DNA from: Ruminococcus sp.
GTDB lineage: Bacteria; Bacillota; Clostridia; Oscillospirales; Ruminococcaceae
Direction of reading: 5' to 3'
NCBI GenBank assembly: GCA_014799735.1
Contig: JAAVHL010000144.1
Span: forward strand, 1 to 32,870
DNA: 32,870 nucleotides
In this document: piece by piece, positions 11,496 through 13,366 of the stretch
Position numbering within the stretch: the stretch's first letter is position 1
How the letters are laid out: every line of letters begins with the position of its first letter
Translations under genes and position numbers: made by a program
Notes under the pieces: generated by a model
Told to the model about the DNA's origin: nothing
The model's input: only the letters and a program-made list of their open reading frames with translations
Databases searched by the model: none

Positions 11496-13241
11496 TCAGT
11501 TTCCTGTCGGTGCAGCAGTGCTGATATTTGCCCAAGCCAGCTGGTGCTGGGTAGAACTGCGATCGTAAGTGCAGAGAACATAGATCCACTTGCTTCCGTA
11601 CTGCGAAGTCAGAACATATTCGCCCTTTGCAGAATCGGCTGTAGGAGAAGTCTCATACATTACATACGGCTCATAAACGCCTGTATCGTTCTTGATCGCT
11701 TCATTTCTCTTAAGAATGTCAGCGCCTGTCTTGGGAACGACCATGTATCTCCATGAACCGTTCTTGGTGTATGCAACAACGTTGTCGGTCTGAGTGTTTA
11801 TATTGGGATATGTGCTGTAGATACTATAGTAGGTGTAAACGCTGCCTGAGCCCATGTCATCGCTGATGATCTTGTCAGCTCTGTCCTGATCGTAGTTGTA
11901 GGGAACAAGCATATATCTTGTTACCGACTTGCCTGTGGAGGAATCAATAACAGTCCATGTCTTTACATCGTCCCATGCACTCTGGCTGGTGGAAGGTCTC
12001 TCGTTATAAACGGTGTAGTACTCATATATGTTATTGTACTTAGCAATAGCAGTATTGAGCTTTACCTTGTCATAATTTGCGGGAAGCAGTACATATCTCT
12101 TTCCGTAATTATAAGAGTAGTTCGAGTGAGTAAACTCATTATAGGTATCGTTAGACGCGATCCTTGAAGGAAGTGTCGTGTAGATCTCGTAATATGTGAA
12201 CTTGTTGAGCTTCTGAGCTGCAGCAGTGTTGGCATAAGCGGGATCGTAGTTTGCGGGAACAAGCATATAATAAGTTGTGTAGCTGCTTGTTGTGAAGTTA
12301 AGGATCTTATCCGTCGAAGCCAGCAGAGATGTAGGTCTTGTGGGGTACAGCTCATAATACGCAAGATTGTTGGCAACGGTAATAGGCACGTCAACATACT
12401 TCTTGGTATTGTTCTTGTCGTAGAATCTTACAGTAGTTGTACCTGCGGAAACGCCCTTAACAGTGAAATTCTTGTAATTTCCGGAAGTTGTGCCCGCAGT
12501 TACGGTAGCGATCTTGGAATTGTTTACAGAGAAGTTCAGGTTCTTAATGTCGGCACTGTAAACCTGAAGAGTAGCGGTAGCGTTTGCATTTACGCTTACG
12601 CTCTGAGAAAGGGGAACAATGCCTGAATTGGTTGTGCTTGTGTCGGGATCGTCCTCCTCGTAAAGGCTGTCGCCAACATTTACGTCAATGTACTTGTAGC
12701 AGGTTGAGGGATACTTTTTAAGGTAAACCTTGATTCTTGCGGTACCCTTGCCCTTTGCGGTGATCTTGACCTTGATCTTGTTGCCGTCCCATTCAACGGG
12801 CTTTACCCATGAAGCGGAAGCAACGTTCTTGTTGGTGCTGCCCACGGTAAGTCCGCTGTGGGAGCCCTTTACGGTCAGCGTAACGATCTGCGAATCGCCC
12901 GCTGCGTCAAGGTCTACCTCAGAGGTGTTGGCGGTGATCTTAGCCGCAACAACTGTTACCTTGCACTTGAGAGTAGTGCTGCCTGTCTTGGCATACACAT
13001 ATGTAGTGCCGGGAGCCTTGCCGACTACCTTGCCATTTGACACAGTAGCGATGGACTTGTCGCCTGTGGACCATGTTACGCTTGAAGCGCCTGAAACCGT
13101 AAGAGTAGTCTGATAACCCTTTGTAACGGTAACGGACGTTTTGCTGAGCTTTGCCGCCGCGCTTGACGGAACAGCCATGAGTGATACGACCATAAATACT
13201 GCTAAGAAAATGCTGAGCAGTGATTTAAAGGTTTTTTTCAT
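11496..13241 (-). CDS. Secreted Big2-domain protein with five Tyr-rich C-terminal repeats
   Basis: A 581-aa exported protein. The signal peptide covers residues 1-30 (MKKTFKSLLSIFLAVFMVVS, AVPSSAAA cleavage area). A Big2-type immunoglobulin-like domain spans about 31-99 (KIATVSNGKVVGKAPGTT-like core). A related Ig-like domain follows at 100-190, then an acidic linker and a third at about 207-291. From 295 five tandem units begin with a YYxxYxxxP pattern at 295, 350, 408, 471 and 525. I see no LPXTG, SLH, dockerin or transmembrane anchor, so it is probably released or bound non-covalently. GGAGG stands 7-8 nt before the ATG. It has its own consensus promoter with phased direct repeats upstream. 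A surface adhesin or glycan-binding role is only a guess; I do not recognise the repeat family. Confidence 0.88.
   Translation of the reverse strand: MKKTFKSLLSIFLAVFMVVSLMAVPSSAAAKLSKTSVTVTKGYQTTLTVSGASSVTWSTGDKSIATVSNGKVVGKAPGTTYVYAKTGSTTLKCKVTVVAAKITANTSEVDLDAAGDSQIVTLTVKGSHSGLTVGSTNKNVASASWVKPVEWDGNKIKVKITAKGKGTARIKVYLKKYPSTCYKYIDVNVGDSLYEEDDPDTSTTNSGIVPLSQSVSVNANATATLQVYSADIKNLNFSVNNSKIATVTAGTTSGNYKNFTVKGVSAGTTTVRFYDKNNTKKYVDVPITVANNLAYYELYPTRPTSLLASTDKILNFTTSSYTTYYMLVPANYDPAYANTAAAQKLNKFTYYEIYTTLPSRIASNDTYNEFTHSNYSYNYGKRYVLLPANYDKVKLNTAIAKYNNIYEYYTVYNERPSTSQSAWDDVKTWTVIDSSTGKSVTRYMLVPYNYDQDRADKIISDDMGSGSVYTYYSIYSTYPNINTQTDNVVAYTKNGSWRYMVVPKTGADILKRNEAIKNDTGVYEPYVMYETSPTADSAKGEYVLTSQYGSKWIYVLCTYDRSSTQHQLAWANISTAAPTGN
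11499..12359 (-). repeat. Five tandem ~57-residue coding repeats
   Basis: In the Big2 protein, units start at residues 295, 350, 408, 471 and 525, giving spacings of 55, 58, 63 and 54. Shared features in order are YYxxYxxxPs, a variable polar stretch rich in Asn/Thr/Ser, an aromatic-YMLVPxNYD core (YMLVPANYD, YVLLPANYD, YMLVPYNYD, YMVVPKTG, IYVLCTYD) and a helical-looking segment with a conserved Asn or Ala. The last two units have diverged from the NYD core. Confidence 0.85.
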
Positions 13242-13288
13242 ATTGAATTCCTCCGTTTCTTTCAGAATTTATTTTATGTTGTAAACTT

Positions 13289-13317
13289 ATTCTAACACTA
13301 AATTTAAATAATGTCAA
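13289..13317 (-). promoter_or_regulatory. Sigma-A promoter of the Big2-repeat gene
   Basis: Minus strand TTGACA (13317-13312), 17-nt spacer, TAGAAT (13294-13289). The leader of about 40 nt ends in GGAGG before the ATG at 13241. Confidence 0.88.
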
Positions 13318-13338
13318 GAAAATATCGAGAACAATACG

Positions 13339-13366
13339 GTGACAAATAGTGACAATCCAGTAACAA
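13339..13366 (-). promoter_or_regulatory. Helically phased direct repeats upstream of a promoter
   Basis: Three 7-mers read GTGACAA at 13339-13345, GTGACAA at 13349-13355 and GTAACAA at 13360-13366 on the plus strand, with start-to-start spacing of 10 and 11 bp. On the minus strand they read TTGTTAC, TTGTCAC, TTGTCAC and end about 22 bp upstream of the -35 box. Seven-bp direct repeats near one helical turn apart are typical operators of OmpR/PhoB-family response regulators; the pho box CTGTCAT is similar. Confidence 0.45.

Follow-up and report, generated by a model that had tools for sequence, protein, structure and literature searches.

A tyrosine-rich tandem repeat of secreted proteins from gut Clostridia and its predicted WalR-type upstream site

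Closest described systems and layout of the protein

The WalR (YycF) regulon of Firmicutes comprises genes such as yocH, pdaC and iseA, and wall hydrolases are present in WalR regulons wherever these have been examined (PMC7299342). For B. subtilis, the wall hydrolase gene yocH is a known direct target of WalR (PMC4478028), and the consensus TGTWAH-N5-TGTWAH has been used for WalR sites in C. difficile (PMC9210968). Sites of this form lie upstream of the gene described here, which encodes a protein with tyrosine-rich repeats (YY protein), and the motif also occurs at genes whose products are wall enzymes of the 3D-domain, deacetylase and M23 types. Unlike in the described regulons, however, the candidate regulator scores below the curated YycF cut-off, and the YY protein has no counterpart among the published WalR regulons that were compared. 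With surface proteins carrying Big_2 domains (PF02368) the YY protein shares its secretion and one confident Big_2 domain, but its C-terminal half consists of repeats that are not Ig-like and have a predicted fold of their own. SLH, choline/cell-wall-binding, LysM and dockerin modules are, like the YY repeats, short extracellular units that stand in tandem at one end of secreted proteins, and wall binding is also proposed here; yet searches of Pfam and NCBIfam with the YY repeats retrieved no match. PASTA modules (PF03793) resemble them in length (about 60 residues), in having one helix and three strands, in their tandem arrangement and in the tie to the WalR/PrkC wall system, although neither sequence nor fold matches.

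The gene is located on a stretch of 32,870 nucleotides (contig JAAVHL010000144.1, positions 1 to 32,870, Ruminococcus sp.), which is called the window (Table 1).

Table 1. Positions in the window of the YY gene, the parts of its product and its upstream elements.
Feature	Residues	Position	Strand	Basis
YY-repeat protein gene	1-581	11496..13241	minus	581 aa, stop included in coordinates; open reading frame found exactly there
Signal peptide (MKKTFKSLLSIFLAVFMVVSLMAVPSSAA)	1-29	13155..13241	minus	sequence; kept across 19 aligned orthologues
First Ig-like (Big2-type) domain	30-98	12948..13154	minus	Pfam Big_2, two stretches in the protein
Second N-terminal domain	99-192	12666..12947	minus	together with first domain, common to CAP-domain paralogues
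Big_2 domain	207-290	12372..12623	minus	Pfam, 8.1e-8
YY repeat unit 1	294-348	12198..12362	minus	shuffle test, unit profile, AlphaFold
YY repeat unit 2	349-406	12024..12197	minus	shuffle test, unit profile, AlphaFold
YY repeat unit 3	407-469	11835..12023	minus	shuffle test, unit profile, AlphaFold
YY repeat unit 4	470-523	11673..11834	minus	shuffle test, unit profile, AlphaFold
YY repeat unit 5, degenerate	524-581	11499..11672	minus	shuffle test, unit profile, AlphaFold
Ribosome-binding site GGAGG		13250..13254	minus	sequence
Sigma-A/70 promoter TTGACA-N17-TAGAAT		13289..13317	minus	sequence; conserved
Operator-like array TTGTTAC-N4-TTGTCAC-N3-TTGTCAC-N4-TTGT		13331..13366	minus	WalR-type direct repeats

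The signal peptide ends in PSSAAA, and an acidic linker separates the second N-terminal domain from the Big_2 domain. The Pfam match to Big_2 (32.6 bits, E 8.1e-8, against a gathering score of 22.8 bits) covers two stretches, of which the best (residues 215-283) lies within the latter domain, so that the protein counts as a Big_2 protein; for two family members (L089, L091) the best stretch is the region of the first Ig-like domain. An earlier note on this DNA had described a secreted protein with a Tyr-rich tandem repeat behind a signal peptide and Big2-type domains, and the open reading frame, the Big_2 match and the shuffle tests given below all agree with this description. At 0.027, the share of rare codons in the gene is low, yet such a value is not unique within the window, and an unusually strong codon bias was therefore dismissed as a distinguishing feature.

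The first 190 residues of the YY protein recur in paralogues which end in a CAP domain (PF00188, 1.6e-21) instead of the repeats. By this comparison, the N-terminal part of about 190 residues is a common export and spacer module that is combined with differing working ends. Such CAP (SCP/TAPS) paralogues were seen at L094:8205-9335, at L098:7207-8478 and on the minus strand of L011, and in two genomes of the genus (G001 and G008) a CAP paralogue adjoins the YY gene.

Neither the sequence of the YY protein nor its Pfam matches contain a known anchor (LPXTG, SLH, CW-binding, lipobox or transmembrane segment), and retention at the wall would consequently have to come from the repeats. A C-terminal array without any other anchor and with many conserved aromatic residues suggests binding to a glycan or wall polymer. 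The explanation which we favour, with a probability of roughly 50%, is that of a secreted envelope protein of gut Clostridia, activated through a WalR-type site, whose repeat array binds a polymer of the cell's own wall. The signal peptide would direct export, the N-terminal Ig-like domains would serve as spacer or stalk and the C-terminal array would be a multivalent module that holds the protein to peptidoglycan or a wall glycan. Transcription would be activated by a WalR-type regulator of the OmpR family binding to the TGTWAH-N5-TGTWAH repeats upstream of the strong promoter, and the protein would thus be made within a programme of cell-wall remodelling, alongside 3D/G5, M23 and deacetylase proteins. 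With a repeat that matches no entry of the databases searched and a control region resembling that of cell-wall maintenance genes, the YY protein probably represents a novel type of protein that binds the cell wall.

Sequence and predicted fold of the YY repeat

The five C-terminal units comprise 54-63 residues each and have the consensus xYYxVYxxxP-x(n)-D-x(n)-RYxLVPxxYDxxxxNxxxAxxxxxY, of which positions Y2, P10, D17, Y30 and P34 are kept in 90% or more of the units. Units 1-4 are clear, with pairwise local scores of z = 4.1-13.1 against shuffles of the same composition, whereas unit 5 is worn and reached weaker values (z = 1.5-5.3). According to the earlier note all five units begin with YYxxYxxxP and contain a core similar to YMLVPxNYD. 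One detail departs from this: unit 5 starts with EPYVMYETSP, thereby lacking the leading YY, and has a degenerate core (IYVLCTYD); the core of unit 4 reads RYMVVPKTGAD. A profile built from the units, as had been proposed there, found 193 units above 20 bits in more than 30 proteins, with arrays of five units in the orthologues of the genus, while other genera have between 4 and 8 per array. Between species, units that occupy equivalent positions share 35-56% identity, against 25% for different units within one protein, which indicates that the array is old and its positions specialised, rather than recently duplicated. Within the genus (19 aligned orthologues) the number and the types of units are constant.

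AlphaFold, which was run on six sequences, modelled each unit alike: YYxxY forms a short strand, which is followed by a beta-hairpin and a helix of 12-13 residues. The full array reached a pLDDT of 84.7 and a pTM of 0.56. The best two-unit model had a pLDDT of 82.8 (others 59-67) and a pTM of 0.68, and the packing between units is, going by these two-unit scores, uncertain. A search of the models with Foldseek against the PDB yielded best E values of 0.45 and 1.1 and none below 0.001, and no relative was found in BFVD, a collection of viral protein structures, either. At the sequence level, the repeat region (residues 294-581) matched no named repeat or binding module in Pfam, NCBIfam and PHROGs, and a search of PDB sequences with the repeats yielded no match. 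The earlier note had not recognised the unit as being of the SLH, cell-wall-binding, dockerin or leucine-rich type, and none of these profiles matched the repeats, those of proteins from other genera included. Both outcomes which the note had named as speaking against its reading, i.e., a match to a named family or a prediction without a repeated fold, failed to appear. As far as sequence comparison reaches, the YY repeats form a genuine family that lacks an earlier description and is new to the databases searched (Pfam, NCBIfam, PHROGs, PDB). It is thus the repeat family which is new, while the kind of protein is already known.

The helix and three strands, the V-P in front of the helix, the tandem arrangement, the extracellular location and the WalR context would also fit a distant, circularly permuted PASTA-like module, and the order of elements in the AlphaFold models is indeed the same as in PASTA when read from the helix. 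However, no Pfam PASTA match was obtained at E values up to 10, hhalign gave a probability of 0.2% against an approximate PASTA consensus, and Foldseek against the PDB retrieved no PASTA domain. This relationship therefore appears highly improbable.

Upstream box, motif-sharing genes and candidate regulator

The earlier note had pointed to a strong promoter and a possible response-regulator site in front of the gene. The promoter is present and conserved, and the putative site consists of conserved WalR-type direct repeats in fixed helical phase. The array begins 48 bp upstream of the -35 element in the window. TGTNAH-N5-TGTNAH precedes 18 of 19 orthologues in the genus (shuffle mean 0.15) and seven of ten YY genes in other genera (shuffle mean 0.07), and the strict form TGTWAH-N5-TGTWAH was found at 10/19 and 6/10 genes, respectively. 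The best half-site, TGTAAC, agrees with TGTWAH at all six positions; the second half-site of the window, TGTCAC, has one mismatch. No N5 box was found at the YY genes of the genus g22, nor at the gene of G111 (L092) from the genus g92. Distances between box and -35 element are 16, 27, 37/38, 48, 59 and 79 bp, i.e., steps of about 10.5 bp on one helix face, as would be expected for an activator bound to one face of the helix. The upstream box matches the WalR consensus form and is a predicted site, and regulation of the YY gene by a site of the WalR type is, by these comparisons, well supported. Of the regulated surface function that had been suggested, the regulated side is thus borne out by the conserved operator-like box, while the surface side consists of the signal peptide, without a known anchor.

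In nine genomes of the genus the exact motif TTGTNAC-N4-TTGTNAC occurs at 52 sites, versus eight for the reversed control; in the source genome its sole exact occurrence is that at the YY gene. Many sites in the relatives precede genes without a link to the wall, among them those for lipoproteins and ABC proteins. The motif is also found ahead of a gene for a LysM-G5-M23 peptidase and of a polysaccharide deacetylase gene, and in the leader of the YocH-like DUF348-G5-3D protein gene in 20/20 genomes, including the source genome, where it has a looser form. This leader element (GGTTAC...TGTWAH-N5-TGTAACC) is mostly located just downstream of the -10 element (G000:C40:4800-6500, L185; L141-L160), and is often a perfect palindrome (GGTTACAGCTGTAACC) followed by a further half-site 11 bp on. 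Given this location, it may serve in repression or form a hairpin in the RNA.

With the motif being common to the YY gene and to hydrolase genes, the YY protein could also regulate or inhibit wall hydrolases, as IseA does in B. subtilis, with repeats that bind hydrolases or their products instead of the wall; WalR is known to control hydrolase inhibitors as well (PMC4478028). Yet iseA is repressed by WalR, whereas the geometry of the YY site suggests activation, and neither Pfam nor NCBIfam links the protein to IseA or other inhibitors, which makes such a role quite improbable.

A cluster of a response regulator, a kinase and an HtrA protease adjoins groES/groEL in the source genome, which is 78.7% complete (contig C129; G000:C129:3000-14000, L194), and is a candidate for the walRK-htrA operon of the genus. 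The best NCBIfam match of the regulator is YycF/WalR with 254 bits (cut-off 340), followed by MtrA (248 bits) and PhoB (230 bits), and that of the kinase is WalK with 230 bits (curated cut-off 725). As both matches are below the curated cut-offs, the regulator is termed WalR-type and not WalR. The source genome contains at least five further OmpR-family regulators, and given the low scores and the closeness of MtrA and PhoB, another of these (PhoB/PhoP-like or MtrA-like) could own the motif, which would then belong to a phosphate or envelope-stress response instead of wall homeostasis. Sites of OmpR-family regulators do resemble one another. However, the full agreement of the best half-site with TGTWAH and the presence of wall hydrolases and a deacetylase among the motif-sharing genes render this assignment unlikely. 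It would concern the regulator alone and be compatible with wall binding by the repeats; that the regulator is WalR itself and acts as an activator is what we infer.

Distribution, possible function and genomic neighbourhood

Among the 21 genomes of the genus, G013 alone yielded no YY protein; of the other 20, G007 has its copy split over two contigs and G011 has a copy cut by a contig end. Within the family, 126 genera were sampled, and the repeat profile gave matches in seven, the match in G140 being weak. Convincing scores in the sampled order came from members of the family only, the sampled class yielded the genome of the window only, and the sampled phylum a single weak match. Two seemingly remote relatives were judged to be chance matches, as the partial match in G561 is a single truncated unit within a protein that is not repetitive, and that in G1342 was not confirmed by the unit profile.

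The genomes of the genus with a YY protein are MAGs from the gut, with Oscillospiraceae, Clostridia or Ruminococcus sp. in their titles. A gut origin would also fit an adhesin whose aromatic repeats bind a gut ligand (plant glycan, mucin or another bacterium) at the end of an Ig-like stalk, with the WalR-type control coupling its synthesis to growth. A stalk with terminal tandem repeats is a common layout of such proteins, and the repeat number differs between genera. The order of parts is, however, opposite to that of wall-anchored adhesins, as the repeats are C-terminal and no sortase, SLH or other anchor is present. Moreover, the fixed number and types of units within the genus and the near-constant presence of the gene are unlike quickly changing adhesins, so that this role is possible but doubtful.

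Binding of the array to the cell's own wall thus continues to be the preferred reading. A more far-reaching version can be put forward tentatively, according to which the YY repeat is an undescribed wall-polymer-binding fold of one family of gut Clostridia and belongs to a structural wall or scaffold protein under direct WalR control. If true, a structural YY protein would be a new class of WalR output besides hydrolases and their modifiers. Most gut Clostridia of this family have not been cultured, and little is known of how they retain proteins on the wall. The YY repeat, being lineage-specific, consistently predicted in its fold and defined by a consensus, offers together with a testable regulator a concrete handle on this, in the form of a single protein family, a single motif and those genes which appear to make up the wall regulon of these Clostridia.

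No conserved operon partner of the YY gene was identified, its neighbours being housekeeping genes that differ between genera. A mobile or viral origin was rejected, as neither a plasmid match nor an IMG/VR relative was found. The one strong match under a phage title, a GenBank record named 'Bacteriophage sp.' (MT837114.1, L162), encodes a YY-repeat protein of 677 aa with about seven units, but with its FeoB-like, PHP-type and DNA-polymerase-IV-like genes it looks like a bacterial contig. A gene judged by eye to be walJ/yycJ-like lies a few genes from the YY gene in L036:3551-4820 and L037:3653-4922, where it is followed by an rlmH-like gene, and another one is found near the YY gene in L091:6089-6880. 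In the genus g92, the gene directly behind the YY gene (L092:9458-11881) encodes a protein of 807 aa that consists almost only of Ig-like (Big2-like) repeats.
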